Assembly (NCBI GenBank): GCA_947179485.1
Contig: OX359245.1
Span: forward strand, 71,845,067-71,909,066
Length of the DNA stretch: 64,000 bases
Direction: 5' to 3'
Origin: Allacma fusca
Lineage: Eukaryota > Arthropoda > Collembola > Symphypleona > Sminthuridae
Both the position numbers and the translations under genes were made by a program. The notes below the pieces were generated by a model. It saw nothing but the letters and a program-made list of their open reading frames with translations, was not told the DNA's origin and searched no databases. This document shows, piece by piece, positions 276 to 60,867 of the stretch (position 1 is its first letter; every line of letters begins with the position of its first letter).

Positions 276-969
276 TAGTGCATCGCATGGGTTCAGGTCG
301 CACCCGGGTATTTGGGTTCAGGTTCAGTTTGGGTTCATGTATTTTGGACCCAATAATTTTGGGTCCTTTCTGGGTACAATATTTTATACCCGTCAAATTG
401 GGTACAGGTTCAGGTTCAGGATCAGGTACAGAGAAAAACCAGTTTTGTTTTTACCTGTCAGGACCAGGTGCAACACATAAAAGACCTGAACCTGATCGCA
501 AAAGAACTGACATGTTTGGGTTCATTGATTGAAAGTTAAAGGCCGGAGAATTCAAGCTTCCAAAATGATTTCCATCGCAAAAGCAATACAATGGCAGGAA
601 GTCCCAGGAACCAGTGAACTTTTATTCTTATCCATTTTAAATATATTTTGTACTACAAATACCCAATAATTGTACTTTTAATACAAGATAAAATTTTAAA
701 AAGTTCGGATTCTTAAGTACCCAAACATATTCAGGTCCGGTCCAAAAATACCCGGGTTCAGGTCGTCTTTTGGGTACTTTTTCGGGTTGAGGTACTAATC
801 AGGTGCGGGTACTACAAAAACGCAATTGGGTCAGGTTCAGGATCGAAAAATTTGAACCTGTTAAATGGGTACATTTTCAGGTACAGGTTCACGCTTTTGA
901 GGTACCCAAAGTTTGGGTCCAGGTTCCGGTACAACAGGTTCGACTGTTTTGAACCCATGCGATGCACTA
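276..969. mobile_element. Non-autonomous DNA transposon with GGGTTCAGG subterminal arrays
   Basis: The ends are perfect 20-bp inverted repeats beginning TAGTGCATCGCATGGGTTCA. Inside both ends a degenerate word related to GGGTTCAGG / GGGTACAGG recurs in inverted orientation (about 290-430 and 700-960). The YARNG-like terminus fits hAT elements. The flanking 8-mers (GGATTTCG and GGCCACCC) do not match, so one flank was probably rearranged. There is no coding capacity; short open frames across it are products of the repeated word. Confidence 0.7.
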
Positions 970-1235
970 GGCCACCCACTACTTTCACTACTCAATTTTG
1001 GTAGTTACCTAGATGAGGCGATCTTCACCTACCAGGATGGAAAAGATATTTATCATTTGAGTAAACATTTTTGTTTAGTAGAGATGTTTGTTGCGAGTTT
1101 TTTGAATACATCTAACAGTAGTTTGTGGAGGATTTAAAAAAAAAATAAGCTTCATAGGAGTTTTGACATCAAAAAGTTAAGAAAAGGTTAATTTGATTCT
1201 TAATAGTGGGGGGGACAGCAGTATAGCCTGTCCCC
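970..1235 (+). mobile_element. 3' half of the hAT-like element found whole at 5345-6654
   Basis: This stretch is nearly identical to about 6327-6600 in the complete element, including the run of G followed by ACAGCAGYATAGCCTGTCCC. It starts abruptly near CCCACTACTTTC and ends inside the GTCCC-rich subterminal zone, where it joins an IR pseudogene. No terminal inverted repeat remains on either side. Confidence 0.75.
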
Positions 1236-1626
1236 CAATGGTTGGCTAATAGACACATTCAACTCCATAGGTACGAAACCTTTAAAAAAAGACGTGAATC
1301 CTCTGAAGTTACTGGATCTTCGGCTGGGTCGGGGGTTTCGACGTAAATACGGATCATTTATTGTGGAGAAAAAAATGATTTGGTCTATTTGATGACAATA
1401 CAAGGGTCCTTTCGACTACATTGACTATGTGAATAAATTAAGATCCAGGGTCGACGTCACTAAAATCACGAATGAAAGACGTATTTCAGAAATGCTCATG
1501 TGGAAAAAGAAACGGGCATTGATGGGAACTGAACCGAAAGTTGACGCTTATTTAAAGTACATTCCCAAGCTTTCCCGGAAGCCCAGATGTTACAAAGGAC
1601 TCGAGAAATTTAATCTTATAGTAGTA
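1236..1626 (+). pseudogene. Truncated ionotropic-receptor pseudogene (relic of the 3366 gene type)
   Basis: Positions 1236-1392 match about 3980-4135 of the intact IR gene, and 1393-1617 match about 4670-4905. Roughly 530 bp are missing between the two blocks, which removes the first two membrane segments. The remaining C-terminal piece is still open (it contains ALMGTEPKVDAYLKYIPKLS) but stops where homology ends near 1617. An hAT element sits immediately downstream, with its target duplication at 1627-1634. Confidence 0.85.
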
Positions 1627-1634
1627 GTATAGTT

Positions 1635-2546
1635 CATACTTGCAGCCGTTCAGTTCATAAAGTGGTGAACTGAACTGAACTAGCCCTTATTCTTATTGTT
1701 TTTGAATGAACTTGAACGAACTAGCTAAATGCAAACTTTTGATTGAATGAATTTGAATTGAATTCAGAAGAACTTATATTGAATGTGAACGAACGTTTAT
1801 CATACGTTCAAGTGACGCAAATTGAACTGAATTAAACTTAAGAGTCCGGGTTTGAATATAAGTTCATATAATCATGAACACAAAACGAATATTATACAAG
1901 ATATCTCTAAATTGCATGAAATTTGTTTTTGTAATCTTAAAAGATAGCACCCAGGTTTTTGATAATACATTTCAATGACATTAAATTACAAATCAATCAA
2001 ATTGCTTACATGTAAACAGATTTTTACATTCAAGAACGAGTATTCAGCACATTTTGGCCCAAGTTGCATGAATTAAAAAGCCCAATAATTGTAAGCATAG
2101 TTATATGATTTATTAATTTGGAAGCACTTGGTTTTTTTACATTAATTGTTTATCAGAAAGCTCAAATTCAATGCTGCTCTCAAAACACCGGAGTTTTGAA
2201 AGCAGTTATTTAATCAGTCATTTAGCAAAACAATCTTGCTTCAGCCAAAGCTCCAAACTATAAAAATAAAAATAAATGTCACTTAAATATATCGTAATTT
2301 ACACGCTAATGACAGATAAAGTGAACTGAACTGAACGACCGAAAAGTATATAATGAATTGAATTGAACTTTGAAAAAATACTGCAAGAATTAACTGAACT
2401 GAACGTAACGACTGGAAAATACGCAATGAATTGAACTGAACTAGGACAGGATTTTAACAAAGGGAACTGAACTTAACTGAACGGAACGAAAAATTTTGGG
2501 ATGTGAATGGAACTGAATTTGAATTTGGACCAAAACTGCAAGTATG
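1635..2546. mobile_element. hAT-like MITE with TGAACTGAAC subterminal arrays, 8-bp TSD
   Basis: The terminal inverted repeat is CATACTTGCAG (11 bp, exact). An exact 8-bp target duplication GTATAGTT lies at 1627-1634 and 2547-2554. Degenerate TGAACTGAAC words fill about 1650-1860 and, inverted, about 2320-2510. The AT-rich core has no transposase. Confidence 0.92.
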
Positions 2547-3365
2547 GTATAGTTAGTTACTTTACACAAATGCCTGACATAAATATGGAAATTCCTAGAA
2601 TTCATTACCCGGGCTTTTTTCATTAACCATGCTGCTACAATTTCTCCTTTCAGAGACACAGTAAAGAGCATGACATTGTAAGAAAATCATTTTCATATTC
2701 TTGTGGTTTCACTTAATAATTTTCGGCATTTGCGAACACCTTCCGGTTAGAGGGTTACGGGTATGAGCCTCCCCGGAAACTGATTTTGTGTAAACTGGCT
2801 TAGTTTAAATAAGATAAGAAATATCCACCTTGAAAAACTGTCGTTGCTCAAGTCAGAATTATTTGTAAAAAAAGTAAATCCTTTTATTTATTTTCCGTAC
2901 AAATTTGAAACTTGTACCTTATATTAATTTCATTTAATTAAAACTAAAAACGACCCACTTTTGAAACCATTATTAGTCATTTAAATTCCATGCGTGTAAT
3001 ATTATCTTAAAGTAATATGTATATGGGTTTTATTTATGCCAAAATTAATTTGTTTAAAAACAATAACGTCTACGATCTCCGAATGCGTGTACTGGCTCAT
3101 GTTATCAGTAAAACTCCAAAAATTAACTTCACACGAAAACCCAAGCGATCGACATGCGTCACATTTGCTCCCGTGTGCGTGCTAATCCAAGTAAAGTATA
3201 TCTACATCAAGAGCCAATTACTTTCTTATGATTAAAAAACACTGGAGAATGTTCCCACAATTTTGAAGGACTACGTACTGGTGACTGGTCTCATCAGTAT
3301 TATTTACACCCGTTCCGTTAACAGGGCAAATCTCTTCCTTAAGTCAAAACGTACATAAAATTTGA

Positions 3366-5312
3366 ATGAGTGTCAGAGCAGCATTCCTTTTCCTTTTTCA
3401 TTCCTATTTAATTTCCTTTTCTTCCACTAATTCCTCCCGTTCCAAATCTTTGCTGACTTTTCTCAGTGAGTTAGAAAATATCGAAATTATCTATCACGAA
3501 AGGGACCCCCGAATGTTTTCAAAATCCCTGTGCAACGTACTATTTATGGCGAACAGGCCCACAATATTAAAACCCTTGGTGAGTACTACTTTCTTTGGTG
3601 AGAATCTACCCAGCAGTCACAAACTGACTGGCCGAATTCACATAACTTGGCTTTCACAAAATGCAAATGGCTTATTGATTTATCCCCCATTTTACTTAAC
3701 AAGAACATTTCGTTTCAACCAAGAGAAGGACAGTGTAATGTTACTCCAACTGTCAGAATCCCCATTTAAAAGGAAACAGCTTCGCTTCGACGCGGACAAT
3801 ATCATGCCTAATTTCCAATATCTTCCGGACATTAATATCATCTTTGAGGTGACAAAATTGGGACATGATTACAAAGTGATGGAATTGTATTCCTTGGGAA
3901 AACTTTGTCAGAACCGAGTCACGTTTTGCCTCCATAGGAAGCCAAATTATCACCAACTTTTTGATCGACAGTATTCCTTCAATGGCTGGCCAATCGACAC
4001 ATTCAATTCCATGGGTACGAAACCTTTAGAAACAGATGTGGAACCTCTGACGTTACTGGATCTTCGACTGGGTCGGGGGTTCCGGTGTAAATACATATTG
4101 TATGTTGTGGAGAAAAAAATGATTTTGGAAATGACCAGGTCTCTAAATGTATCATCAGTTGTTCAGTATAATAAAGCAAATAACTTTAGTCTTCCCTCGT
4201 TTAATCCTTATAAGTACATGATAGGTGCATTTGTATACAGTCTTGTGAGCACCTTCCGAGTAAATGACTACCCACATTTGTTTTTGTACTGTTCCAATTC
4301 CACGACGACAGTTCATACGAATTTACTTGCAATTTTCTACCCTTTTGAGGTGCTGGTGTGGACATTCATGGTTTTGTCGATGTTGGGTTTATCAATGCTA
4401 ATGTGGAAAATTCACGGAAGATCCTTTGTAACCTGTGTCTTATTTGTCACAAACACTCTAGTGGCTCAAGGCTGTGGGATATCCAGTCGGAAGTTGGCCT
4501 GGTATTTTCTATGGAGCTTCATGTCTGTTGTAATCACTGTCCACTACACCTCACACATTGAGAGTTTGCTGATCTCACCTGCGAAAGAAAAACATATTGA
4601 GACCTTCAAGGAGCTCTCCGAAGCCAAATACAGACTTATTGTGACGCAAAGGGACACATTGTTCCCTTTGATGATAAACAAGGGTCCTTTCGACTACATT
4701 GACTATATGAATAAATTAAGATCCAGGGTCGACGTCAGTAAAATCGAGAATGACAAAACTATTTCAGAAATGCTCATATGGAAACGGAAACGGGCATTAA
4801 TGGGAACTGAACCGAAAGTTGACGCTTATTTAAAGTACATTCCCAAGCTTTCCCGGAAGACCAGATGTTACAAAGGACTCGAGAAATTTAACCTGTTTCC
4901 CATGTATTGGGCGGCCACTGCCCCAATGCAAACAGGTTTGGTAAAGTCTCTACAACAGTTCATAGAAACGGGGATGTTTAGTATATTCGACAGCATCTGG
5001 AAGGACCAGTCTCGAAATAGGTACGATGAGAAGTTAAAATCCGACTATGGGGGAAGTTCAGATAAAATTCCCAAGGAAAGAAACCAACCCCTGTTTTTGC
5101 TAACTTGGAATAATCCCCAGGGGCCTGCTTTGTTTATGTTCCTGCGGATGGGGATTACTTTGGGAATGTTTTGGTTTATTGTGGAGTGTCTACAGTCCTA
5201 TATGGATACTAGGAGAGTGTTTCATATGCATGTGTACAAAGTACATTTAAGTTTGACTAAGAATATTAGGAGGTTGCGTACGCGTACAGCTGATATGTTT
5301 GGAAGAAAATAA
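3366..5312 (+). CDS. Divergent ionotropic receptor (IR/iGluR-like), copy A
   Basis: Single-exon gene of 648 codons. The product is expected to be a ligand-gated cation channel of the chemosensory ionotropic-receptor type, in the plasma membrane of sensory neurons. An N-terminal hydrophobic stretch (residues about 5-20) looks like a signal peptide. A long extracellular ligand-binding half follows. Three membrane segments lie near residues 318-345 (IFYPFEVLVWTFMVLSMLGL), 376-400 (LAWYFLWSFMSVVITVHYTS) and 586-610, with a short pore-loop region (about 355-375) before the second. The usual SYTANLAAFLT-type motif after the pore is reduced to VHYTSHIESLL, so it is a divergent member. The ATG at 3366 is shared with the copies at 52067 and 32454. 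About 130 bp upstream are conserved in all three copies and may hold the promoter and 5' UTR. The IR family call is from architecture; the ligand is unknown. Confidence 0.85.
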   Translation: MSVRAAFLFLFHSYLISFSSTNSSRSKSLLTFLSELENIEIIYHERDPRMFSKSLCNVLFMANRPTILKPLVSTTFFGENLPSSHKLTGRIHITWLSQNANGLLIYPPFYLTRTFRFNQEKDSVMLLQLSESPFKRKQLRFDADNIMPNFQYLPDINIIFEVTKLGHDYKVMELYSLGKLCQNRVTFCLHRKPNYHQLFDRQYSFNGWPIDTFNSMGTKPLETDVEPLTLLDLRLGRGFRCKYILYVVEKKMILEMTRSLNVSSVVQYNKANNFSLPSFNPYKYMIGAFVYSLVSTFRVNDYPHLFLYCSNSTTTVHTNLLAIFYPFEVLVWTFMVLSMLGLSMLMWKIHGRSFVTCVLFVTNTLVAQGCGISSRKLAWYFLWSFMSVVITVHYTSHIESLLISPAKEKHIETFKELSEAKYRLIVTQRDTLFPLMINKGPFDYIDYMNKLRSRVDVSKIENDKTISEMLIWKRKRALMGTEPKVDAYLKYIPKLSRKTRCYKGLEKFNLFPMYWAATAPMQTGLVKSLQQFIETGMFSIFDSIWKDQSRNRYDEKLKSDYGGSSDKIPKERNQPLFLLTWNNPQGPALFMFLRMGITLGMFWFIVECLQSYMDTRRVFHMHVYKVHLSLTKNIRRLRTRTADMFGRK

Positions 5313-5344
5313 AATATTTAAAAAGTACATTGTTTGATTTTATA

Positions 5345-6654
5345 CAGGCACTCCGGAACGTTTTTTTGCTATTGGTCACATGTATGTACATATGTATAGC
5401 ATTACACAGTATTTTTCGTTAGTTTGCTCATATAAGCATGCAAAATATAGGACTTTTAATTTTTGATCCAAATTTTTGTTTAAAAGAACAAGTTTTTATA
5501 GGAGACACCAGCTAAATCTCATATATTGGAAACATTTTCTTACACACACTAAATACTACCAAAATTTTACTGCTTTCAAATAGTGGTATCAAAGAATCAT
5601 TGAACTGATTGGCGATATATTCCCGGGAATGGTTCAATCTGTTCTTTCATTTTTGGTCTGACATGGTCCAAGTGTAGAACCATTCCTCTAGATCCGTTCC
5701 ACAATTTTCGTCCAAGGAACATTCTCCAGTAGATTTACTGGTTTAGAAGTTCATGGCCTTTTCCATCCGTTGGAACAGACCAAATTTTGTGTCGGTGAAT
5801 TTTTTGATTTAAATGTTTCACCAAACAACAATATTTCATGTTAATTATTAATATCCTGAAATAAACTCCTTGGGCGACGTTGTAATACTCAGTTGCCATC
5901 TTTTCAATAATATTGGCGCGCTAAAACCTATTGAGTTAATAAATTCCTCCTAGCAAATTTTCCGTTAAACTCGTATACAGGAATGGTATTATCTGTCTGG
6001 TCCGACATTTTGGAACACAATTATTGGTCTGGCATGAATTTGGAACGAAATTCAAAGCAAAGTTTCAAATTGTTCAAACTTTTGATCCAGGTCAAGATTT
6101 TGGCCTGGATCAATCTGGCAAGGGGAGGTCAACATGTTCGGCATACGTAGCGGGGAATTATATTCCAAATTTAGTAATAGTAAAGAATGTTGGATAGAAA
6201 AATATCTTTTAATTTTTTAATGGGCTGCGTTGCGTTGATTACCTAAGTTACTATTTGAATAATCACATTATCAAGGATGAAAACGGTAGCCTTAAAAAAT
6301 CTAATTCGGACTGCAGTATGACCCACTACTTTCATTACTCAATTTTGGTAGTTACCTAGATGAGCCGATCTTCACATGCATGCATACACCAGGATGGAAA
6401 AGATATTTATCATTTGAGTAAACATTTTTGTCTAGAAGAGATAGTTTGTTGCGAGTTTTTTAAAAACAACTATCTGCAGTTTGTGGAGGATTTTTTAAAA
6501 AATTGAATCTTCATAGGAGTTTTGACATCAAAAAGTTAAGAAAAGGTTAATTTGATTCTTAAAAGTGGGGGGGACAGCAGCATAGCCTGTCCCTCCCTGA
6601 CCTTTTTTGGGAGGGACAATGTCCCTCCTGTCCCCCCTTATTCCGGAGTGCCTG
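5345..6654. mobile_element. hAT-like element, TIR CAGGCACTCCGGAA, TSD ATTTTATA
   Basis: The terminal inverted repeats of 14 bp are exact. The exact 8-bp target duplication ATTTTATA lies at 5337-5344 and 6655-6662. It inserted just downstream of IR copy A; arm B has no element there. No transposase frame is visible. Its two halves also occur separately at 8751-9761 (5' core) and 970-1235 (3' part). Confidence 0.93.
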
Positions 6655-16085: not shown

Positions 16086-17055
16086 TAGAGCTTCCAATGT
16101 GTTCAACATTTCTGTTCCGTAGGAAATTCCGTTCCGTTCCGAAACCTACAAATAATATTGGTCCCGGTTCCGTTCCGGCTGTCGGGACATCGGAACATTT
16201 GAACTGACACCGTTCGGAACACAGAAGTAAAGTATTTTTTCCGTTACAGGTTGTGTTCCGTTCCGTAATATGCTAGTTTTTCCGTTCCGTTCCGAAATAT
16301 CCCGGAATTGTTCACAACATATGCGTGTAATGCGTGTACAAATTACTGGCAACTTAATACATATACATGATATACTTTTAATAGATTGGATACTAGGGGA
16401 TGCTATTATTTAATTATATAAAATAATATTTAATAATAATTAGGCCATATAAAAAGAACTACTGTGCAGTATTATATAATTATTATTAATTATTTTTTAG
16501 TAATAAATATTTGTAGCGTGTATATTTCTATGGCCTAACAGTGTTAATTTCCTGCAAGCTTGCTTCATTACTCCTAATAATTTCGATTTCAGAATTTTCA
16601 TTTCGAGAAAAATCGCGCATGCCCATGTTTATGAAACAAAATTAGTTAATCTGTTGATTTTCATGGAAATCGATACTCGCATTACATATAAGCATTTGCG
16701 CAAATTAAATCTGTGTTCATCCAATTTCGTTATTTTGGCAAAAAACTGCTTACAAGCCAGTGCGATAAGAAATGTGTTTCCATTCTAGTTGAACGATGGC
16801 GCGACGCTTCAGAAATTGTACCGGGATCGGTTCGGAACGGAACAGAACAATTCCGCTTTCCGATGACATAAATTATATGGGACATTTTTCGTACCGATGC
16901 TCTGAACCGTCCCGGTCCCAATATTATCGGTACAAGTGCTCATGTTCCGGTTTTGTCCCGATTCAATGACGGAACCAAAGAGAATGTTCCGAAAGTGTTC
17001 CGTTCCGTTTCCGAACACGGAACTTCGGGATTTCGGAAACCCGAAGGAAGCTCTA
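16086..17055. mobile_element. hAT-like MITE with TTCCGTTCCG arrays, TSD TGAAGAAG
   Basis: The TIR TAGAGCTTCC is exact. The 8-bp target duplication TGAAGAAG lies at 16078-16085 and 17056-17063. Words of the TTCCGTTCCG / GGAACGGAAC type crowd both ends (16115-16300 and 16825-17045). It interrupts exon 2 of the IR paralogue in its C-terminal ligand-binding lobe. Confidence 0.94.
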
Positions 17056-18195: not shown

Positions 18196-19086
18196 TAGGG
18201 ATGGCAAATACGATATTGGCGAGACGATAATATCGCAAATATCGCCAAATTTACTTGCGATAATGATGGCGATAATTATCGTAAACATCATCGATAATAT
18301 CGGCATATCGGTATCTCGTTTATATCCGAATGGAGCTAATGGCAACAACTTGCAGGTACTTTTGTAAACTCAGGAGGAAAGGGATGTTTCAAGGAGCGGT
18401 CCCTGCTTAGACATTTTATAATTAACTAGTGCCATTTTATTACATATCGTAGTCTGCGCACATTCTCTATGATTTCATCCAGCTTTTTGCATTGTAATTC
18501 ATGAGCTACGTTCTGTCTCCAGCCATATCTTTACAGTCTATAAGTGCATAAGGAATTTCTAATCGTAAAAATTGGAAGTGACATTTATTATTGATTTTAA
18601 TTGCGTTTGCAATTCCCTTGTGTCACATAATAATAATATATCTCATCTCACAAAATTAATTCCAACCTAATCTGGAACTTCTTTAATAATAACTGATATC
18701 TTTGGGCACGGGTTGCCGTGTAACTAATAAGTTATTAGTGTCTAGCTGGGTAATTGTAATTCAGAATTTGGATATTGGAACACGTGTTAATTAAACAAGC
18801 TTAAATTTCTGAAACTTTTGTTCTTTCAGGCAATTAGCTATAAGATATTTTTGACCGGATTTATTAATCAACCATTGTTTGCATAATTTTTGATCATAAA
18901 TTAATGTCACTGTCATCATGTCTTCAAAATAAATACCATTGGCTATTTTCACGTTCCTTGTTGTAGAATTCAAGTGCTAGCTAGAATGTTGGCGATATAT
19001 CGGCGATATACGATATATCGCCATTTGCAATTTTACCGATACCGATATTTGCGATATGAATCATGTGGCGATATTTGCCATCCCTA
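18196..19086. mobile_element. hAT-like MITE with CGATATCG-type arrays, TSD CTCCGGTT
   Basis: The TIR TAGGGATGGCAAATA (15 bp) is exact. The target duplication CTCCGGTT lies at 18188-18195 and 19087-19094. Both ends are packed with GATATCG / CGATAATATCGC words (18205-18320 and 18985-19075). It sits in the intron of the broken IR paralogue. Confidence 0.94.
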
Positions 19087-19375: not shown

Positions 19376-20181
19376 TAGACATGTCAACTACGGTATCGTA
19401 GTACGGCAATACCGTAATTACCGTAAAAAAATTAGGTACGGTTTAGGTACGATAATTCTCGGTTTTTTGAATCGATATCGTAACTCCATACGATATTGTC
19501 AATCCAGCGGAAGGCTCATAAAATTGTGGTGTTACATACTCGAATTTTCATTAAAAAGAGTGAAACTCAAAAATGAAAGGAATTCGTTCGATAATAAAGA
19601 TTGTGTGTAGGTTCAATATGGAAAAAAATTAATCGAACTGATTACTTAGAATCTAAACCAAGTCGTGCGTCTAGTAATTCAAGTGTTTGGAGTCATTTTT
19701 TGAGTCGGTCTGACGGCATGATGGCACTTCACCTGTTATGAGAAAGAGATGGGAAGTCACTTCCTAAATTAATATAGGTACGACCGAATTCGGTAAAGAT
19801 TTAGTTTGGAAAAATTACTAGAAGATAAATCGAAGAATTCGGTATCGTTTTCTATATTTTATGATTTTCATATTTTTCATACGAATGTAAACAGGAAATT
19901 TGATTTTTTTTCAAACTAGCTTATTTTATAAGGAATTTCTGCACATTTAATACTCTCACATTAATTGACATCAAAGACGCTAAACTGACTGTTGAATAAC
20001 TGATGTTGGATTTTTTACTTCATATCTTTACACACATACCATAAAAATCGACTTATATTCGTGTTTTTACCATAATCGGATTAATTTACGATACCGTACC
20101 TTAAAAATATTACCGGAGTTTTCCCACTTTACGGTAACGGTAATTACGGTATTTTAAACAAGAACGGTATGAACATGTCTA
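19376..20181. mobile_element. hAT-like MITE with TACGGTA arrays, TSD GTCTTGAC
   Basis: The TIR begins TAGACATGT. The target duplication GTCTTGAC lies at 19368-19375 and 20182-20189. TACGGTA / TACCGTA words recur at 19390-19500 and 20085-20165. It breaks exon 1 of the IR paralogue at the codons for VKT. Confidence 0.94.
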
Positions 20182-21341: not shown

Positions 21342-21724
21342 CAGTGGCCGGGTCGGATTTTTGTGGGAAGACGGGAAGATTTTTCCCAAAAAAATACTTT
21401 TCCGACAGGAAAAATATTCAGGCGAAAAACATAGGGAAGGAAATTTGTTTTTGTTAAACGGGGATTTTGAAATTGGTTGACCTTTCTTTAGCAGATTTTT
21501 TTAATAGATGACGTCGTTTACACGAATTTGTTCTGTAAACAGTGATCCTAAGATTAATTCACCCTTTTTAGCAGGGATTTTCAAATATGCGGACGTCTGG
21601 TTGGGAAAATCTTTTGTCAACAGAGATTTTCAAATTGTTTTAGCATGAACGTCCCACCAGGGTCATCAGATTTAGCAGCGATAATAAAAACGAACTTTCC
21701 AGATTTACACAAATCCGCCCCCTG
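21342..21724. mobile_element. Candidate hAT-like MITE related to 33374-33774
   Basis: The left end is CAGTGGCCGGGTCGGATTTT and the right end is AAATCCGCCCCCTG. The flanks CCGAAACT and TCGAAACG agree at 6 of 8 positions. Internal words such as GCAGGGATTTTCAAAT and GTCAACAGAGATTTTCAAAT recur and are shared with the element at 33374-33774. Confidence 0.65.
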
Positions 21725-23490: not shown

Positions 23491-24410
23491 CAGGGATGAA
23501 ATATCGGAAAAATAAAAATTCCGATTCCAATTACGATACCTGTATAAATTTAATTTCGATTTAGATTACGATTCCGATGTACCCAAATAATTAATTTTGA
23601 ATTCCGATACCAATTAATTCAAATACTTTTAAATAATTCCGATTCCAATTCCGATTCTATACATGTAACCTATAATTTATTGTTATTTTTGTAATTTTTA
23701 AGTCATTCGACCAGTTTGTGACCAAACTATTTGTTTACTCTTACAAACAACATATTTTGCAGGGATTCCTCTGGTATTCGACCTAGGTTATAGTTTTAAA
23801 TTAAACGTAATGGAGGGAAAATGTCTTCCCACAGTAACCTAAGTTACTGGAATGCTCAAGATTACAAATTTTACTTGCTGGATAATTTCCGAAAACTCTG
23901 AATCATTCAACCACATAAACAAATTAATTTATTTTTCCCTTGTGCGGTCCATCGTTCTTCCACAGAATACTTTGGAATAGGTCTTTCATTTTTTTGTATT
24001 TCTGAATTTCTATTTTAGTCGTAGTAATCACGAACAAATTCTGCCTTTCTTTACATTTTTATTACTACGATAAAGATCTATTTGCGCAAAAACCATGTAG
24101 AAGTGTAAAGGGTAGAAGGTAAAGGTTCTATGTAAAAGATCGTAAAGGTCTCTTTATGGCTGTATACTCCAATGTCAGAAATGGAATCGGTATTCATCAG
24201 AACATAATTAAATTCTAATACCAATACCGATACTTCATTTCCAATTCTGATTAGAATTCCAATACCTAATTTTACATTATTTTAAATTCCGATTCCGATT
24301 CTAATACCTAATTTTACATTATTTTAAATTCCGATTCCGATTCTAATACTTTAAATTTTCGGATTCTTTTTCGATTCCGATTCCAATTCCGATTCCAATT
24401 TTCATCCCCG
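23491..24410. mobile_element. hAT-like MITE with ATTCCGATTCC arrays
   Basis: The ends are CAGGGATGAAA and TTTCATCCCCG. The flanking 8-mers CGACCAAG and GGACCAAG differ at one base. ATTCCGATTCCAATTCCGAT-type words fill 23518-23660 and 24235-24400. It splits the first recognisable exon of the dehydrogenase. Confidence 0.85.
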
Positions 24411-32841: not shown

Positions 32842-33047
32842 CAGGGTTGGAAAAAAACCGGATTTTATCAATAGAGGCCAAGCCAGTGGCAAGAAATGGT
32901 AACAACCGGCTTTTATTGGACAGTGGATTTATTTGGATAGTATTAATTATGGCCATTTTATACCAGCCTATACAACAGGTCTAAGCCGGTTAGAACCGGA
33001 TTTTAACCAATAATGAACAGGCCATTTCTTGCCACTTACCAACCCTG
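32842..33047. mobile_element. Short hAT-like MITE, TIR CAGGGTTGG, TSD GAACCAAC
   Basis: The ends are CAGGGTTGG and CCAACCCTG. The exact target duplication GAACCAAC lies at 32834-32841 and 33048-33055. Internal blocks GGCAAGAAATGG and AACCGG recur in both orientations and match the pair of elements at 54601-55008. Confidence 0.92.
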
Positions 33048-33373: not shown

Positions 33374-33774
33374 CAGGGGTCGGATTTATGTGGGAAGACG
33401 GGAAGAATCTTCCCAGGGAAAAAAATTTTTCAGCAGGGAAATTTTCAAACGGGATTGCGAACAGGGATTTTCAAATCTGTTGACCTTTTTTTCGGCAGGG
33501 ATTTTTGAAATTGTTGAGGGGTTTTATGGAAAATGTTTTTTGTCAACAGGGATTTTTGAAATTGTTGAGGTGATTTACGTAAATAATTTTCTGTCAGCAG
33601 GGATTTTCAAATTTGTTGCCCTTTTTTTCAGCAGGGATTTTTGAATTTGTTGGGGTGTATTACGAAAATTATTTTGTCAACAGGGAGTTTTGAACTTGCT
33701 TCGAACAGGGACATCATGACCAGCAGGGAAAATGAAAAAAATCTTCCAGGGAGATTTACAAAAATCCGACCCAA
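33374..33774. mobile_element. hAT-like MITE with CAGGGATTTTTGAAATTGTT arrays
   Basis: The left end is CAGGGGTCGGATTT and the right end AAATCCGACCCAA. The flanks CTTGGGTG and GTTGGGTG match at 7 of 8. The words CAGGGATTTTTGAAATTGTT and TTTTTTTCAGCAGGGA recur through the body. It lies where the N-terminal part of the neighbouring endonuclease gene would be expected. Confidence 0.75.
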
Positions 33775-41260: not shown

Positions 41261-41352
41261 CAGGGTGCCCAGATTATTCCAGTCTCAAATCAGGACTCTT
41301 AACTGAGTTTTAAAAATTCACCCGTTTGAATCCCAAAGTTTACACTACCATT

Positions 41353-42265
41353 TAGTGTTTCTGTCGGTGCAAAGATTGGGAATAACCGAACTTGCAATTG
41401 CAATTGTAATTGATAATGCAAGTACCAGTAAGGACGTAACTGGTACTTGCTAAAATACGGCAATTAAATCATTCAAATAACCGAAGTTGAACTTGCAATT
41501 AGTTCATACGTTACTTGTAGTTGGTAAGGCAATTGCAAAAACATTTGGATGTAATTGCACCGATGAGTACAATTGCAAGTGCAATTTGCAATTTGCAATT
41601 GCAAGTAAACTGATATACAGCATAAATGATCGGCGATGAGGCAAAATAATCTGTGCATTTTTGATTGGTAGCAAAATGATAGATGCACAAATGAAATAAC
41701 ATTCCTTTAAGCCTTCCAAGGCTAAAATATTGTAAAATTTCATTCTTCAATATATCTTTACAAGATGCCCTTAAAATATTTCGCCTTTTTTCTATGATTT
41801 TGTGCAAATTGGAGAATATTGATACTAATCGAAAATTCACTTAGGTCATTTTGCATCCTAACCGACGAAATCGCACAGTAAGTACAGTAATCGCACTCAT
41901 TGAGACTATACACGTGATTATTATGCACTTCAGTTATTAGAGAGGAATGACTTATTGAGGGATTTTATGGAATTTTGCGCTCAAATTCGAAATGGTTGCA
42001 AGTTGCAATTAAATTGATAAGTATTTTTAAAATTGCATCTTTTTACAGTACAGGTACTTGCAATTGCAATTGAATTTCTTGCAATTTCAATTGTGCTTAA
42101 CCGGTAATTGCGAGTATTTAATGCTTTTTTAATTGCAATTTAAGTACACAGAAATTGGACTTGCACCTGCAATTGCAATTACCTGATACAAAATAACCGC
42201 AATTGACCCGAACTTGCAAGTTCAATTAGTAATTGCGGTTAACTTGCAATTGACAAGAAACACTA
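41353..42265. mobile_element. Nested hAT-like MITE with TTGCAATTGCAA arrays, TSD CTACCATT
   Basis: The ends are TAGTGTTTCTGTC and its near complement. The exact target duplication CTACCATT lies at 41345-41352 and 42266-42273. TTGCAATTGCAA words, with AACTTGCAAT variants, form long arrays at 41385-41610 and 42000-42250. It is younger than the element it sits in. Confidence 0.94.
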
Positions 42266-42684
42266 CTACCATTATAAACACAATAAGATAATGCTCTTTA
42301 ACGTGTAGACCAGCCGACTATATTTTTTGTTAGATCTACAAGACGACATTTTCCCCTGTTTCTTCACGATCTTCATAAAAATCTAACGTTCTAAAAGCCT
42401 AAAGTTTTCACTCCAAGGGTCAAAGTATCTTAAAACAAATGGGAAACACGTCACTGTATTATAGTGCTTAAATCTGATAATGTAGAAAATTAACATTCTT
42501 GAGATATTATTTCATTTATCAAATGTTCGACTGAAAATTTAGCTAGAACATTTTGAACTAAAGCTGCAACTTTGTCCTAAAGTTAATGAAGCATTTGAAT
42601 CTTTTGAACATTTTCCCATTAAACGAAAAAGAAATTCCAAACTTCTGAAAGATTAAGGATGCTTTACTCCATAATATGACAGGA

Positions 42685-42903
42685 CTAATTCGGCAGTTGC
42701 GGGTTTGCCACCACTTTGATTTTTAAATGATTGAGACAGACAAATTCACTTAGCGTGGTCGAAGTATGCTTTTTGAAATTAGGGGTCGAACCCTTTGCAC
42801 AACTTGCATCAAATCTACAGATGTTGCACCAAAAGCATTTGTCTCCTTTGGTGGTACACCTCCTTTTCTCACTGCAACGGTAAAGGCAACTATTCTTTGG
42901 CAA
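42685..42903 (-). pseudogene. BED zinc-finger relic of a hAT transposase
   Basis: The minus-strand frame reads CFWCNICRFDASCAKGSTPN followed by FKKH, with a second histidine position disrupted. This is the CxxC...NxxxH pattern of BED fingers at the N-terminus of hAT transposases. Only about 70 codons remain. It lies inside the 41261-43561 element and suggests that element descends from an autonomous one. Confidence 0.6.
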
Positions 42904-43076
42904 TCCGAATATTTAATGAAGACAGTTTTTACCGACATTGCCAATCAAAAAAGAAAACTTCCAATTCAACGTTTAATACGGGCACACGGACCTACGATAG
43001 AAAGCATAAACTATTATTAATACCCAAGGAGAAAGAATTATTAATGCAGGCGGTAAGAAAAAATGCAAAAAGGAAT

Positions 43077-43194
43077 GCCAACAACACCCGAGGTTCCCAA
43101 GCGGTCACCCATCCAAGTACTAACCGAGCCCAACGTTGCTTAATTTCAGTGATCGGACGAGAACTGGTGCTTTCACCGTGGTATGGCCGTTGGC
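43077..43194 (-). rRNA. 5S ribosomal RNA gene
   Basis: The minus strand reads GCCAACGGCCATACCACG at the 5' end, GTCCGATCACTGAAATTAAG, the internal control region (AAGCAACGTTGGGCTCGG and TGGATGGGTGACCGCTTGGG), and CTCGGGTGTTGTTGGC at the 3' end. The 5' and 3' ends pair as the terminal helix. The length, about 118, is that of 5S rRNA. Downstream lie T runs (TTTTTGC, TTTTTTC) suited to RNA polymerase III termination. About 25 bp upstream, CATAAAG is TATA-like. It sits inside a hAT-like transposon, so it may be a captured gene or a functional dispersed copy. Confidence 0.93.
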
Positions 43195-43752
43195 ATACGG
43201 AGTTGCAAATCTTTATGCATTTGTTTTACTGCATCTAGTTCAATTAACTGTTATTGGTACTTGCAAGTGAACGCTGCAGAACTGTTCCGTACAACTGCAG
43301 TTTTGAACAGCACGAAATAAAAACGTTCAAAATTAAACAATTGTGCATGAAGAGCAGAATTTAGATTTATATGTATTGTTTATATTTGTATTATGAATCA
43401 TAATTTATGATGCCATATCGCTTTGCCCCAAAATGCAACAAAGTGATATTTTTGTAAGCTATACTGTGAAATCAGGACTAAATTCAGGCTCATCAGGTCA
43501 TCAGGTGACCATGGGTCAAATCAGGACAGTCCTGATCAAATCAGGACTTCTGGGCACCCTGTTTCTGACCCCAGTGACCTTGGATAAAATTAAACTTTAA
43601 GTACTGATAGGTCTCATAGTTTTATTTTTCATTCCTTAATTTAGCCCTATCGTTTGAATATACACGGGTAGTCCCAATTACTCTTAATACATACCCAGGT
43701 AAAAAAACCTTTTTGAGTAAATTTTGGATGCAGATACTTTTCAGGTATAGGT

Positions 43753-44533
43753 TAGAGGTGGGGCCCGGAAGCGGACTTTTTGATTCGGGCCGGCCCGAAC
43801 CCGACCCGGCCGGGTTTTTGGCCGGGTTTGGGCTTCAAATACGAACTTACGTTGGGCCACGATCGGGTTCGGGCTGCTCTAAAACAATGAAATCGGGTTA
43901 AGATCGGGCTTGGGCCTGCATTTATTTTTCAGTTCGGGTTTCGGGCGCGCCAGAAATTACAAGTGACCCGACACTTTAACTAGAATAAAATTCAGGACAT
44001 ATATGTGACATGCACATTTGACGTTGCGCAGAGTTCCAGCATTGCTTTCACGTAGTAATATTCATGCTAAATAATCGCTCGTTGTATTTAATGCGTACAC
44101 CGGCTTACAAATTTTGAAACGATCCCTTCCGCTTGATATTTTATGTTCGCAAATTTTCAGAGCCAATAAGAAGTTTTGCTCCTTAAGTGCATGCTTATTG
44201 AATGTGTTGAGTAGGGAGGGAAAGTACTTATATGTAAATATTATAGACTATGTAAACAGAGGATTCACAGCGGATTCAACTATTACTAAAAAGGGGGGTT
44301 TCCACTGGGTTTTAAAACCATTTATTGGTCGGGTTTTTAACGGGTTTGGGTCGTAAAAAATGTTGGAGACCGGGTTTTTAACGGGTTCGGGCTTCACAAA
44401 ATTTAAGGTGCTTAAAGCGGGCCGGGTTGAATATCAAATATTTAGCCCGGGGGCGGGTCGGGTCGGGCCAATAAAGTATTTTCTCGGGTTTCTTCCGGTT
44501 CGGCCCTGAAGTTAAGCCCGAATCCCACCTCTA
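43753..44533. mobile_element. hAT-like MITE with CCGGGTTTGGGC arrays, TSD GTATAGGT
   Basis: The TIR TAGAGGTGGG is exact. The exact target duplication GTATAGGT lies at 43745-43752 and 44534-44541. GC-rich words such as GGCCGGGTTTGGGC and CGGGTCGGGTCGGGCC pack both ends, in contrast to the AT-rich core. It is inserted in a stretch rich in CAGGTAC words (about 43693-44660) that may itself be another element. Confidence 0.94.
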
Positions 44534-46678: not shown

Positions 46679-46680
46679 TA

Positions 46681-47628: not shown

Positions 47629-48117
47629 TAGTGCTGCAACCGTTTCGTTCCTGAAACGAAAATTTTCGTTTCGTTTCATTTCGTTTCAGTTTGTTTCACC
47701 AAAATTGTATTTCAGTTTCAGTTTGGGACGAAACGAACGTTTCAGTTCGGCTTCTGAAACAAAACAAAACCGCCCTAATGACACGCATTTCAAGCGTTTC
47801 AATGCACACGTCATTTCATATTCTCAAAGGAAATTTCCCGTGGAATTTGTATAATACTTCACAAAGCTTAAAGGGATACAACGTACAGTATACCCGTGCT
47901 AAAACATTTACCCCATTTTATTACAATATTAGTACTTCAATAATTGGGTGCTCCTGAAACAATCGTTTTGTGTTCCGTTTCAGTTCATCGAAAAAAAATG
48001 AAACGAAATGAAACACATTTTTTCGAACTGAAACGAAACCTGAAATTCGTTCCATTCCAGTATGCAAACTGACATGAAACGAAGTTTTTGAAACAAACTG
48101 AAACACTTGCAGCACTA
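47629..48117. mobile_element. hAT-like MITE with GTTTCGTTTC arrays, TSD TCCGACAC
   Basis: The ends are TAGTGCTGCAA and TTGCAGCACTA. The exact target duplication TCCGACAC lies at 47621-47628 and 48118-48125. GTTTCGTTTC / GAAACGAAAC words fill both ends (47640-47765 and 47960-48105). Confidence 0.94.
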
Positions 48118-52885: not shown

Positions 52886-52959
52886 GTACTATATGGTACG
52901 GTACTTTACGTAATATGATTAGCATGACCAGTGCCGCCCGTATAGCACTTTGTAAGTCC

Positions 52960-54570: not shown

Positions 54571-54600
54571 GTAAGTCCATGCATTGGATGTTGCATTCCA

Positions 54601-55008
54601 GGGTTGGCAAGTGATAAGAAATGGCCTGGCCGTTATTGGTTAAAATCCGGTTCTTACCGGCTTGGTCTAATTGCTTGGGTTGGTATTAAATGGTCGTAAT
54701 TAATATTATCCAAATAAATCCACTGTCCAATAAAAACCGGTTTTAACCAAAACGTACCACCGGCTTGGCTAATATTACGCATGCATGAACACAGGGTTGC
54801 AAAGTGGTCAGAAATGGCCTGGTTATTATTGGTTAAAATCCGGTTCTAACCGGACCGGACCTGTTGTATAGGTTGGTATAAAATGGCCATAATTAATACT
54901 ATCCAAATAAGTCCACTGTCCAATAAAAACCGGTTTTTACCAATTCTTGCCACTGGCTTGGCCTTTATTGATAAAAGCCGGTTTTTTGCCAACCCTGTGC
55001 ATTACATG
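54601..55008. repeat. Two tandem copies of the CAGGGTTGG element family
   Basis: One copy begins CAGGGTTGGCAAGTGATAAG at about 54600, the second CAGGGTTGCAAAGTGGTCAG at about 54792. The block ends GCCAACCCTG near 55006. Both carry ATGGCCTGG, GGTTAAAATCCGGTTC and AAAAACCGGTTTT as in 32842-33047. Flanks TTGCATTC and TGCATTAC are similar but not equal, so the target duplication is unclear. Confidence 0.75.
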
Positions 55009-55479: not shown

Positions 55480-58400
55480 TTAAGTATAGGAGTCATCTCT
55501 CTGTACCAGTATATGCTTAATCAACATTCTTTCAAAAATACCGTGTACACAGTCACGCATACGACAAGGAAGAGGGAATTCATTCCATGACTTTACACAA
55601 GCATAAACTATGTTGTTTTTGCATAATGGCGGCCTTGGCCATAGGCAGGTAGAGAACAATACAGTCAGAGCAGCGTAATCTACTAGAAGAAACCTATAAA
55701 AAAAGAATAAACCATTAATGTAGTTAATGTTACTACCTTAGTGTGCCAAGTTCAACATAAACTTATGCTTCTATAGTATGTGATACGATCAAGGACAGCT
55801 AAAATATTGTAATGTTCGTATAGTTGCGAGAGTGTAAGTATATTTTTATCATTACGGTTACGGGAATACATTCTCATTAAGAATTTGTCCAACTTACATT
55901 GTATGATGTCAATTCTAGACTTGCATTGCTCCAAATAAGTAAACAATAATCAATATGACTAAGTACAAAAGAATTGATTCGCTGCCTGCGAGCACTGTCA
56001 TTTATCAGGTATCGTTTGACACGGATTAGTGACCCCATATATTTAGATATTTTTTGTAGCACATACTCTACATGTTCTTGGTAGGTAAATTTATCATCCA
56101 ATATTACACCTCAGTATTTGAAAGCCCACACTCTTTCCAGTGGTTCACTATTCACGTAAATCTCACAATCAGTTGTAATAGCAGATGGCGATTTGTTAAA
56201 AAGTAAATATTTGGTTTTAGAAATACTTATTGTCAATGCATTATAGTTCATCCAGGTATGTAAGTTATCCCGACACCCTTGAATGCGTTTAAATAGACAA
56301 GAAACACAATTGTCATACATAAAGATAACCAAATCATCAGCATATGCAATATAGTCAACAGTCAAATGTTCATTCAAGTCAGAGAAAATCATACAAAAAG
56401 ATACGGACCAAGTATGGATCCCTGAGGCACTCCATTTACATCATTATATACATCAGAAACAAAATCATTACATATTATTTTAAATCTGCGGTTATATAGG
56501 TAGCCAGTAAGTACACGCAAGATGAAAATATTACAAAACTTTGACTGCAACTTGTGAAGTAGTAATATCCGGGACACAGAGTTAAATGCTTTTTTAGGTC
56601 AATGAATACCGCTAAAACTTTTACTAGAGGTGCTCTGAGATACATATAAATTTTGTGTACAAACACAAGCACGGCAGTCAAACATGATCGATTACGCCTG
56701 AAACCATTCTGGTTTTCATCCAGCAGTTTTTCACAATCAACTAAGAGGCGATTATACACAACCTTTTCAAACAACTTGTTCAAGAAGGGCAGGAAGTGAA
56801 TTGGTCTATATGAGTCTGCCTCAACTTTACTGCCTTTCCCCTTATAGATAGGAGAAACATGTGCTGTCTTAAAGTATTGAGGTAGACATCCCATAGTGAA
56901 ATTCATATTGAAAAGGAGCATTATCGGGAAAACTAGAGACGCCTTTACAAAAACCTGGCGACTGATAGTGTCATGCAAATTACTTTTAAGGCTTAATCGC
57001 GAGAACGCATACCAGATTTATTTTGGCTCGATCGGCACGTGAGCACCTTTCATTACAAGAGTTTCTTTAAATTGTAGTCAGTATAATTTTCTTCTACAGT
57101 AAATGTATTGGCGAGTGTATTACAGATTTCAATAGGCGTTTGTACATAAGAACTATTCATACATAATTTTTCAATACGTGATACAGATTTCCTCTGTACA
57201 CCTAAGACCTCATCAACAGTATTCCATGTACCACGCGATGTAGTGGCATTCTTTTCAAATTGTGCATTATAGAACATACGTTTTTAATTATAAATACTAG
57301 ACGTAACACGGGCTCTTAATTTCAAATACTCATTTCACGTGGTGTTAGAACTGCTTAGAATAGCAAGTCCTTTGCATTTATTCCGCTGTGATATTAATTT
57401 TCGTGTCTTAGCGTCAATTAAGCACTTGCTAGAAATGTTAACAAGTTTTTTCTTCAGAGGGGCATATTGTTCAAGCAGTACAGAAACTGTAGTTGAGATA
57501 ACATTGTAGGCAAAATCAATAGGGTACCTACCATTATTCAGTAAATTCCAATCTACTTTACAAAGCTCAGAGTTGAACGGAGTCCAATCAAGATCCTTAA
57601 ACTTACGATACGATACAACATTACGTGTATTTGCAGAAATGCCCTTAAAGCTATATTCAGAGGAGAGGTAGTCATGGTCTGAAAGACCAGTAAAGTCCGA
57701 GGTCCATGGAATAGTTATATTGGTAGGGACATATAGGTGGTCAATGAGGGAGCTACTTATACGCTTACCAGCAGTACGCCTAGTCTGTACATTAATAATT
57801 TGTTTGTACTCAAAGGAACTGACACAAGTCATAAGCTCAAGGGATTCATACGAGGAGTTGGATATGTCAATATTTACATCACCTAATATAAAACATTTAG
57901 ATTTCAGAGTATATATACGTTTGAATAGTTTTTCAAAGAAAAGTAGAAACTTTCTAACATTTGAGGAAGGAGGCCTATACAATGAAATGATAAAAATATA
58001 TTGGTGTTCTGAGAGACCCAACTTACATATAAGCAACTCTACCCCACTGTTGAAGAGGTCTATACCCCAATCAATAATATTAAACCGCACTCTATCATGT
58101 AGATATAACAAGATCCCACCACCTTTCTTATTAACTCTATTTGTAGTAATAAGATTATACTCTGGAATATTGTATGCGCCTAAATTAGTATTAGGGTGAA
58201 AGAAGGTCTCAACAAGAGAACAAACGTCAATAGCTTTGTCATAGAGAATGCATTTCAACTCTTCATATTTATGCCCTGTATAATTATTTATGTTTAAAAA
58301 GAAAAACTTTACCAATTTAGAGGCAGAGGTATGTGGCTTACACAGTGTTGGGTTGAGATTTGCAACAATGGAAGTACTCTGGTCAGGGAGAAGTGTCAAG

Positions 58401-58480: not shown

Positions 58481-58569
58481 CACAATTATGTTAGTTGAGT
58501 ATTTCCCTGACACTATTTCTATGACAAGCAAGGTAACTCTACGTTATAAAGTTTTATCCTAACAGTAAT

Positions 58570-58730: not shown

Positions 58731-58914
58731 AATTCTACATCAATGGCCATAGATACAGGAAGCCTTGACCTCTTTTTTCTTGTAGTTATTCGGAACTGCT
58801 TGATTTCTACCTGAACGGCCGTTTCGTAGTCGCCTTTTCAGCCAAAAATTCGGTATCCTAGCTAAACGCATAAAGAGCTAAACGTATAACAGCTAAACAC
58901 ATAGAGTTATACGC

Positions 58915-59200
58915 ATAATCCGCTAAACGTATAAGGTATCTAAACGCATAATCATCTATACGTATAAGGTATCTAAACGCATAATCATCTATACGTATAA
59001 GGTATCTAAACGCATAATCATCTATACGTACAAGGTATCTAAACGCATAATCATCTATACGTACAAGGTATCTAAACGCATAATCATCTATACGTATAAG
59101 GTATCTAAACGCATAATCATCTATACGTATAAGGTATCTAAACATATAATTGTCTAAACGTATAGTCTTTAAAAACGTATAATCGGCCAAACGTATAAGG
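58915..59200 (-). repeat. Minisatellite, 33-bp unit, left terminal repeat
   Basis: About seven units of 33 bp carry TATCTAAACGCATAATCATC and TATACGTATAAGG. Because 33 is a multiple of three the minus strand stays open and reads an 11-residue repeat (IDDYAFRYLIR). That open frame is a by-product, not a gene. Confidence 0.92.
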
Positions 59201-59211
59201 TATTTAAAAGC

Positions 59212-60155
59212 ATTTACATGTACATTTAATACATGTCCTTGCAAGACCATCGTCGCTAAAGAGACCAAATTGTCTCATGCATATTCAACCGACGTCTACT
59301 TGTAATTTCAATAAAAGGAAAATAGTCTACGTACAGGCAATGCGTACAGGTAAAACCCACGCAAATAGTTTGAATCCCACTGTTTATCAGGAGCCGTTGA
59401 TGACCCCGTAAAAATCAGTATTTACGCCAATTACTGATATTTTCCTGACTATATTTCCGGGAGTGGCTTATAATATATTTGATTTTCTTGGACCGGTCTT
59501 GTCAAGTTTTTCCAAAATTTACGTCATTGAACTGCGTCAACGTTTGGGTAATTTGAGCCACAAAAAGGGTACACGTATGGATTGTTCCAGGGGTGGATTA
59601 ATAAAATAATTTTTACCCTGACCCTAACCCCCAAAATGGATTTGTGGGCCATTGCATTTGCATGTATGTAATCTGAGGGCCTTAGTCAACATTTTTGTTA
59701 CCCTGCCCTAAATGTTTTACAGGGTGGGCCACCCCGTAAATCCACCCCTGAATTTTTCTAGAACTCAAAATTAACATGTTTGCTGGAAATCTTGTAGGAT
59801 TTCCGCTGAAATGCTGTAAAGTTTAGTTAGTAAGTAAAATTGAATCTAAAAAAAATTAAACCATGCGTTACAGTTTTTGCTCCGGTGACCTCATTGAAGC
59901 AGGATAATAAATAAATAAGATCATCATTATTAACTTAATTCTTGTAGCTTACAATCAAAATAGGTGTTTTGCAGAGCTTTATATTTGCAAAAGCAGGTGT
60001 CAAAAACGTGTTGCAAAGGGAATTCAAAATTATCTCCACATTACTGGCCGTATCCTGCTGTTATCTGTTAATTTAAAGCTTTGCGCGCTCATTTCACTAA
60101 ATAGCAAGCCGCTATGCTATGTAGTACACGTTTTCACTATATGGACATGCAAGCC
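59212..60155. other. Interior of the foldback-type element, left part
   Basis: No gene is seen. A patch at 59590-59750 has GGGTGG / CCACCC words in both orientations (GGGGTGGATTAATA ... AATCCACCCCTG), possibly a small further MITE. Confidence 0.45.
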
Positions 60156-60270
60156 GGTGGTATATGCAGCAAGCAAAAGCCGAGGAGCACAGCGAGATGA
60201 GCGAGCTTAAAAAGCTCTCCTCTGCGACAGAGTTTCAGCTCGCTGTGCTTCTCTTGCTGTGTATACCACC
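60156..60270. mobile_element. Very short palindromic MITE
   Basis: GGTGGTATATGCAGCAAG pairs with CTTGCTGTGTATACCACC, and inside them GAGGAGCACAGCGAG pairs with CTCGCTGTGCTTCTC. The whole is about 115 bp with most bases in the inverted repeat. No clear target duplication. Confidence 0.65.
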
Positions 60271-60280
60271 TGCTGTCTAT

Positions 60281-60380
60281 CTACTGGAAGCTCATTAAAG
60301 CGTACAATATTAAGCAATTTTAGATTGTCGCCATAATCTAAAATTCCTTAATATTGTACTCTCTATTGAGCGTCCAGTAG
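60281..60380. repeat. Near-perfect 46-bp inverted repeat (hairpin)
   Basis: Arms 60281-60326 and 60335-60380 match at 41 of 46 positions around an 8-base loop (GTCGCCAT). The outer end of the right arm, TCCAGTAG, is the target site duplicated by the hAT-like element that follows directly. Confidence 0.85.
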
Positions 60381-60867
60381 TAAGGCTTCTGTTCGGGACG
60401 GTGCCAGGATTGGGACAGTTTCGGGACAATATTTTTGCCCCATGTTATTTCGGGACTGAATCGGGACTTTTTTGTCCAAATAGATTTCGGGACGACACGG
60501 AACAATAGATCGGGACAGGAAAAAATACCTGTACAGTATACAATTGCTGCAAAAATGAATATGTATAGGAATCGTTCCGTTTAAAATTTGTTGTTTTATA
60601 TGTAAATACTTTTTAAAGTAAACGTTCGCTATTATTGGAGGTATTCTTATCGAAATATTTATCGAATTTGGAGCATTTCTTTTAAGACTGGGATTATAAT
60701 CGGGATGGGACATCCCGAGGTTTTGGGAACGGGACAGAGATCGGGACCAAATTGTTGTCCCCATGTTACTTCGGGACTGAATCGGAACGAACTTTTTTGT
60801 CCCAAGGATTTCGGGGCGGGACAGAATTGTCGGCGGTACAACAAAATTGTTCCCAGTAGAAGCCCTA
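60381..60867. mobile_element. hAT-like MITE with TCGGGAC arrays, TSD TCCAGTAG
   Basis: The left end is TAAGGCTTCTG, and the complement of the right end is TAGGGCTTCTAC. The exact target duplication TCCAGTAG lies at 60373-60380 and 60868-60875. TCGGGACNG words recur at 60390-60520 and 60690-60835. Confidence 0.93.

Follow-up and report, generated by a model that had tools for sequence, protein, structure and literature searches.

Private short words at the ends of hAT-like elements in the springtail Allacma fusca: a common layout that may reflect binding by the elements' own transposases

Elements in the window

A 64-kb stretch of the Allacma fusca genome (C1:71845067-71909066), called the window here and which we infer to lie on chromosome 1, was analysed together with the 392.74 Mb (91 contigs) of genome sequence in which relatives were searched. 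A first-pass annotation had described seventeen elements in this window as hAT-like miniature inverted-repeat transposable elements (MITEs), most of them with a private short word arrayed at both ends. The window elements and their relatives are best read as hAT transposons and MITEs whose end arrays of about 250 bp are putative sites for the BED zinc finger of their own transposase; this reading was derived from sequence and is given a probability of roughly 0.73. The seventeen elements, each named below by its first position, are listed with their terminal inverted repeats (TIR), 8-bp target site duplications (TSD) and words.

276..969: hAT-like MITE; 20-bp TIR TAGTGCATCGCATGGGTTCA; word GGTTCA; no 8-bp duplication found
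1635..2546: MITE; TSD GTATAGTT; TIR CATACTTGCA; word AGTTCA; ends about 79% identical to the transposase-bearing locus L042 (about 641-5095)
5345..6654: element; TIR CAGGCACTCCGGAA; exact TSD ATTTTATA; array not significant; left tip not YARNG
16086..17055: MITE; TSD TGAAGAAG; TIR TAGAGCTTCC; word CGGAAC
18196..19086: MITE; TSD CTCCGGTT; TIR TAGGGATGGCAAAT; word ATATCG
19376..20181: MITE; TSD GTCTTGAC; TIR TAGACATGTC; word ACGGTA; inverted polarity
21342..21724: weak element; TSD 6/8; TIR 8/10; related to 33374
23491..24410: MITE; TSD 7/8; TIR CAGGGATGAA; word ATCGGA; direct polarity
32842..33047: 206-bp MITE; TSD GAACCAAC; array not significant; related copies at 54599-54769 and 54792-54997
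33374..33772: CAGGGA-rich sequence; right end undefined; no duplication found
41261..43561: outer element, host of 41353; TSD TTTCTGAC; TIR CAGGGTGCCC; word mostly at the right end
41353..42265: MITE nested inside 41261; TSD CTACCATT; TIR TAGTGTTTCT; word AATTGC
43753..44533: MITE; TSD GTATAGGT; TIR TAGAGGTGGG; word AACCCG; direct polarity
47629..48117: MITE; TSD TCCGACAC; TIR TAGTGCTGCA; word GTTTCA; inverted polarity; internal-deletion relative of L045
48215..48934: MITE; TSD GTATGGAT; TIR CAGAGGTGTC; word GAAGGA; internal-deletion relative of L015
52960..54570: MITE; TSD GTAAGTCC; TIR CAGGGTTGCA; word AAATGC
60381..60867: MITE; TSD TCCAGTAG; TIR TARGGCTTCT; word TCCCGA; direct polarity

A blind scan of the window for 10-bp TIRs (at most one mismatch) lying directly inside an exact 8-bp duplication returned 17 candidates, against 0.27 per shuffle in 30 dinucleotide shuffles; 13 of them are listed elements and four are unlisted. 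Exact 8-bp duplications flank 13 of the seventeen listed elements (1635, 5345, 16086, 18196, 19376, 32842, 41261, 41353, 43753, 47629, 48215, 52960 and 60381) and imperfect ones flank 23491 (7/8) and 21342 (6/8), while at 276 and 33374 a duplication was looked for and none was found; the earlier count of twelve exact and three imperfect duplications is corrected to this extent. The YARNG-like termini that had been ascribed to about seventeen elements were recovered as left tips in 14, the exceptions being 1635, 5345 and 19376. The element at 5345 is 91% identical to window positions 8751-9635 across 893 bp, and the element at 23491 holds a 42-bp tandem duplication at 24256-24349. Two arrays of a 33-bp minisatellite (58911-59213 and 61999-62155), inverted to each other and about 3 kb apart, have the element at 60381 between them; their arms are 79-88% alike.

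The arrays were evaluated by counting, on both strands, the most frequent 6-mer in the two 220-bp ends and comparing its count with 200 shuffles, in a sample of 31 elements (the 17 of the window and 14 from transposase loci). The observed count was reached by none of the shuffles in 13 of the window elements, by one in 43753 and by two in 21342, and it was not significant in 32842 (12/200) and 5345 (24/200). That most elements have a short word of their own arrayed at the ends is thus borne out, with at most 2 of 200 shuffles reaching the count in 15 of 17. Sequence pairs taken outside the elements held a mean of 4.1 copies of their end word, with at least 10 in 30 of 2000 pairs, some of which probably lie in unlisted elements. 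A stricter test, which counted the same word only when inverted at both ends, gave 0/200 in just four elements (16086, 18196, 41353 and 47629), and several others were at chance.

Genome copies and transposase-bearing relatives

Genome-wide DNA searches covered five window families, for each of which 40 copies, the window copy included, were scored out of 180-834 candidates. All 40 scored copies of the 16086 family were full length, at 95-100% identity, as were 27 of 40 for 18196 and 24 of 40 for 43753. Contiguous copies were few for 41353 (4 of 40, from 834 candidates), the others being mostly two separate end pieces, and for 47629 (3 of 40), where the others likewise matched mostly as end pieces. 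Six copies of 18196 were fetched; four have their own exact 8-bp duplication and one has a 6/8 duplication, and the sixth, with changed tips, was left unscored. These five families behave as MITEs in the usual sense of short elements with many copies and fixed ends. Relatives of 47629 differ in length, with about 490, 910, 1910 or 3380 bp from one matching end to the other, which resembles an internal-deletion series. According to the first-pass annotation, copies without the array, or arrays away from the tips, would mark the words as ordinary microsatellites; the scored copies of the five families retain both their tips and their end arrays, and farther than about 250 bp from the tip the words are no denser than background.

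Transposase genes were sought genome-wide with the hAT dimerisation region PF05699, and the best 150 of 860 candidates were scored. Thirty loci with PF05699 matches were fetched, together with one reached through 47629 (L045); the choice of loci, by high score or long frame, favours young families. A TIR and an 8-bp duplication delimited 19 of the 31 loci (11/20, 7/8 and 0/2 by batch, plus L045). The duplications are exact in 17 of these and have one mismatch in L036 and L021; L021 is the least securely delimited, its TIR having three mismatches in 12. The 19 loci make up 15 transposase-bearing families, and the count of the end word in each of the 15 is reached by no more than one of 200 shuffles. 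The protein of L036 matches the Hermes transposase in PDB (6dww_A, 2.3e-9). Another transposase locus, L024 (3041-5361), has word arrays of the L042/1635 type on both sides and no clear ends.

The first-pass annotation had also proposed that each word be matched to an autonomous hAT with the same termini. Transposase-bearing copies with the same tips and word were assigned to three of the seventeen window elements, and for the other 14 none was found or sought. The element at 48215 is 82.7% identical to L015 over 481 bp at one end and 82.7 and 85.6% identical over 156 and 139 bp at the other; 1635 and L042 are 78.6% identical over 257 bp and 78.9% over 227 bp, one figure per end; and the two halves of 47629 are 89.6 and 86.8% identical to L045, a 3380-bp element at C12:41320656-41324035 with the duplication GGGCGGAA. 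Together with the TIRs and the 8-bp duplications, these three families uphold the description of the window elements as hAT-like MITEs.

Layout of the end arrays

Words were compared among 30 families, a set to which L036, L038 and L040 were added and from which the extra copies L014, L018, L041 and L009, the elements without a clear array (5345, 21342 and 32842) and 48215 (of L015's family) were left out. Removal of 41261 gave the 29 families used for word density, and further removal of 33374, with its undefined right end, gave the 28 used for spacing, anchor and motif polarity. These 28 are not fully independent, as L015/L016, L028/L038 and L010/L017 are related.

Per 1000 positions, 44-108 words were counted within 250 bp of the tip and 1-9 farther in; the outer zone is favoured in this profile by the choice of each word within the first 220-250 bp, from a two-strand count blind to orientation. 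With motifs trained only on positions 20 and beyond, 14 of 56 ends had a site starting exactly at position 11, where about 3 were expected, and none had one starting at positions 0-6. A site starting at 8-14 was present in 33 of the 56 ends (20.9 expected) and missing from 23.

Read inward, the inner sites had opposite polarity at the two ends, and so lay in direct arrangement on one strand, in 22 of 28 families; three families were inverted and three neutral. A stricter threshold left 18 direct against 2 inverted, and a motif-free k-mer measure in 30 families gave 23 against 7 at k = 6 (Wilcoxon p 7e-5) and 25 against 5 at k = 5. The inverted arrangement of the words that had been reported for the window elements is accordingly rejected as the general rule. 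First sites had the same inward orientation in 9 of the 13 families that have one at both ends. The first word is often anchored and sometimes palindromic (TCCTTCGAAGGA in L015, CCCTCATGAGGG in L020), and flipped words then occur at one end.

Distances between sites on the same strand favoured 5-6, 11, 30-31, 36, 41-42 and 47 bp, of which 5-6 bp corresponds to half a helical turn and 11 bp to one turn. There were 71 same-strand pairs at 41 bp, compared with 13-19 at 38-39 and 43-44 bp, and only 6 opposite-strand pairs at 41 bp. The mean profile reached 1.89 at lags 40-42, a value that none of 1000 block shuffles attained at any lag (largest 1.57), and the top lag fell at 40-42 in 11 of 28 families, against a null mean of 1.9 and maximum of 7. 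The same families served both to discover and to test the 41-bp lag; the nulls were based on the maximum over lags, and 41 was the best lag between 20 and 61 separately in three disjoint subsets (11 transposase-bearing families, 11 from the window and 6 others) and also at each end. Pairs at 41 bp exceeded a family's own expectation in 20 of 28 families. One end of L015 (3216-3460) contains a 29-bp tandem repeat that bears the L015 word, with a period that differs from 41 bp.

Words, transposases and the BED finger

No two of the 30 families had the same top 6-mer; it occurred 7-33 times in its own family and, on average, 0.07-0.90 times in the others. Twelve of the 30 were nevertheless found at least four times in another family, for example between L028 and L038, L015 and L016, and E1635 and M_L018. 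The six most similar transposase pairs among the 15 transposase-bearing families were as follows.

L015/L016: transposases 67% identical (coding strand), word similarity 0.80
L017/L021: transposases 61% identical, word similarity 0.14
L010/L017: transposases 55% identical, word similarity 0.45
L040/L035: transposases 54% identical, word similarity 0.55
L010/L021: transposases 53% identical, word similarity 0.06
L028/L038: transposases 52% identical, word similarity 0.91

This mixture among related transposases implies that a word can persist between close relatives; the best candidate for a switch of word is L017/L021. The earlier proposal of rapid turnover with one word per family holds in that all top words are distinct and some relatives have lost the word; it is too simple in that 12 words recur elsewhere and some relatives keep theirs. 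Across the 15 families, word similarity and transposase similarity were correlated by Pearson's coefficient (0.40-0.43, p 0.0004 or less). The words of L011 (CTCTAC) and L036 (CACTAC) are alike (0.35) and their transposases have no mutual protein match, a case of possible convergence.

The Pfam zf-BED model scored 29.2 bits in L035, above its cut-off of 20.6, and was below the cut-off in L040, L038, L017 and L028. An alignment showed the Tyr/Cys/Cys/His pattern to be invariant in six other families, and by eye an asparagine stands at the place of Hermes N67 in 12 of 15 BED regions, the exceptions being L010, L021 and L045. The recognition-helix residues agree between L015 and L016 and differ between L017 and L021, as expected from their words. 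A simple recognition-helix code, built by eye on the residues before the zinc histidine, was rejected, since it fits two pairs and fails two.

Comparison with known hAT systems

Transposase-binding subterminal words that differ by element are already known from Ac, Hermes, Herves and BED-type proteins, and the novelty claimed in the first-pass annotation was to this extent overstated (PMC3260210, PMC10368747, PMC3143072, PMC8097297). A search of the openly licensed literature, at the level of titles and the beginnings of abstracts, found no work on springtail hAT MITEs, no survey of such families in one genome and no 41-bp rule.

In Ac/Ds, AAACGG hexamers in the terminal 200 bp bind the transposase, and non-autonomous relatives share the tips and some of the hexamers (PMC3260210). 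Ac/Ds is one system with one word, whereas in Allacma 30 families stand side by side with different top words. In Herves of Anopheles, a CG/AATTCAT motif at both ends binds the transposase, and the left and right ends are bound differently (PMC3143072); Herves thus resembles the Allacma families in a short motif repeated at both ends and differs from them in being a single family. The motif bound varies among the BED-type domains of individual hATs, and each of the four hAT-encoded BED-type proteins tested has a motif that matches the subterminal regions of its own element (PMC8097297). That account of CGG-binding proteins from hATs treats, as far as its consulted portion goes, the protein side; array layout and MITEs, which lie outside that portion, were examined in Allacma.

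The closest precedent is Hermes. The crystal structure of its BED domain contains left-end bp 11-27, where two sites form a quasi-palindrome, and the bases are contacted by Q64, S66, N67, R70 and the apical loop ahead of the zinc ligand H71. At the left end the repeats STR2-7 are antisense, whereas those of the right end, STR1-5, are in sense orientation; each end requires about 220 bp, and two left ends bind antiparallel, left-left transposons being inactive (PMC10368747). With Hermes the Allacma families share, in many cases, first sites right behind the TIR and inner sites that are antisense at one end but sense at the opposite one, and sometimes a palindromic first pair at one end; the Allacma arrays of about 250 bp are comparable with the length needed in Hermes. 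Hermes sites are a sparse AAG(T/C), whereas the Allacma arrays are denser and their words differ among families of one genome. The same-strand spacing of about 41 bp in the Allacma families is not mentioned in the parts of the Hermes account that were consulted (PMC10368747).

Interpretation of the arrays

The layout that is shared across different words looks like the footprint of a transposase, and the resemblance of anchor and polarity to published Hermes provides a precedent, by analogy, for reading the words as BED-finger sites. In the mechanism that we propose, the catalytic part of the transposase would grip the tip, while a BED finger of the same oligomer would sit on the anchored first word. 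Further BED fingers would dock on later copies of the word in a fixed geometry, for which 41 bp, close to four helical turns, would be the step. The word would change when the specificity of the finger changes, and MITEs would remain mobile only while keeping the word of their master. The inner words are directed inward at one end but outward at the opposite one, so that the array could distinguish the left end from the right; such labelling of the ends by polarity would fit the antiparallel Hermes left ends and the inactivity of left-left transposons, but not a failed rescue experiment described below.

A number of observations weigh against binding by the element's own BED finger. The zf-BED model exceeded its cut-off in only one of 13 N-terminal or transposase fragments, with four below it and eight without a match. 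L028 and L038 share one word and have different helix residues, and L011 and L027 have near-identical helix residues and different words. The rank correlation between word and transposase similarity in the 15 families is not significant (Spearman 0.13-0.14, p 0.14-0.16). As to the layout, 8 of 28 families lack the 41-bp excess. Two families found later, which form a weak check, were divided in polarity (L035 direct, L021 inverted) and had 3 pairs each at 40-42 bp, where 1.7 and 2.5 were expected. In Hermes itself the right end made no BED contact, mutation of the inner left-end sites left about 70% of activity, a left-left transposon was not rescued when one left end was made right-end-like, and for the region farther than 50 bp from the tip a host factor is suspected by the authors (PMC10368747); each of these four points tells against any simple interpretation of polarity or of long arrays.

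The strongest rival accepts the words as transposase sites and ascribes their polarity and 41-bp steps to growth of the arrays by slippage or by duplication of blocks of about 41 bp; it is considered unlikely. Tandem duplication is indeed the likely origin of the spacing in three families, E23491, E47629 and L027, whose spacers are 0.51-0.69 identical at lags 40-42, as block duplication would give, and flank identity is raised overall (0.38 vs 0.315). The 41-bp peak persists, however, when these three duplication-like families are removed (128 pairs against 71 expected, reached by 0 of 2000 permutations), and as an explanation for the remaining families mere duplication was rejected. Nor does array growth explain a one-strand polarity kept at ends separated by hundreds to thousands of bases, or the pile-up of sites at position 11.

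A host DNA-bending or chromatin factor that binds the words in place of the transposase and aids the pairing of the ends is more doubtful still. The cellular factor proposed by the Hermes authors, the activity retained after the inner left-end mutation and the non-significant rank correlation all speak for it. Such a factor should give one or a few words, yet the top words differ in 30 of 30 families, and words are kept between diverged transposases in L015/L016, L028/L038 and partly L040/L035. Neutral, functionless microsatellite-like growth would agree with the short tandem runs of 5-6 bp units of which the words consist and which slippage produces, and is very improbable, since the words beat shuffles at the ends, are limited to about 250 bp of both ends, are anchored at position 11 and are kept in two pairs of transposases that are 52-67% identical.

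A bolder proposal can be put forward tentatively, with the odds somewhat against it: hAT ends may follow a grammar independent of the word, made up of an anchored first word, a one-strand polarity that marks left and right, and a ruler of about 41 bp set by the transposase oligomer. As only the word varies and the machinery is kept, a lineage could escape its MITE parasites by switching the word, and L017/L021 may be such a switch caught in the act. One genome would then hold dozens of mutually private transposition systems. Structural knowledge of how hAT ends are read comes mainly from Hermes, and a layout shared by dozens of families with differing words separates the features that may be fixed by the machine (anchor, polarity and spacing) from the free one (the word). 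Two questions thereby become testable: by what means a transposase distinguishes its left end from its right, and how its binding specificity co-evolves with its MITEs. Pairs of BED finger and word would also lend themselves to training a BED recognition code.

Other features of the window

Besides the hAT-like elements, the window contains an inverted 2.8-kb duplication, the remains of a retrotransposon without long terminal repeats (non-LTR) and two neighbouring zinc-finger-like frames.

2548-5320 and 50116-52893: inverted 2.8-kb duplication, 94% identity; long frames of 648 and 615 aa that resemble ionotropic-receptor-type ligand-gated channels (Pfam Lig_chan below cut-off)
56475-58399, minus strand: remains of a non-LTR retrotransposon; endonuclease and reverse-transcriptase frames above the Pfam cut-offs
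36662-37927 and 39198-39902, minus strand: neighbouring C2H2 zinc-finger-like frames, the first above the Pfam cut-off and the second recognised by eye

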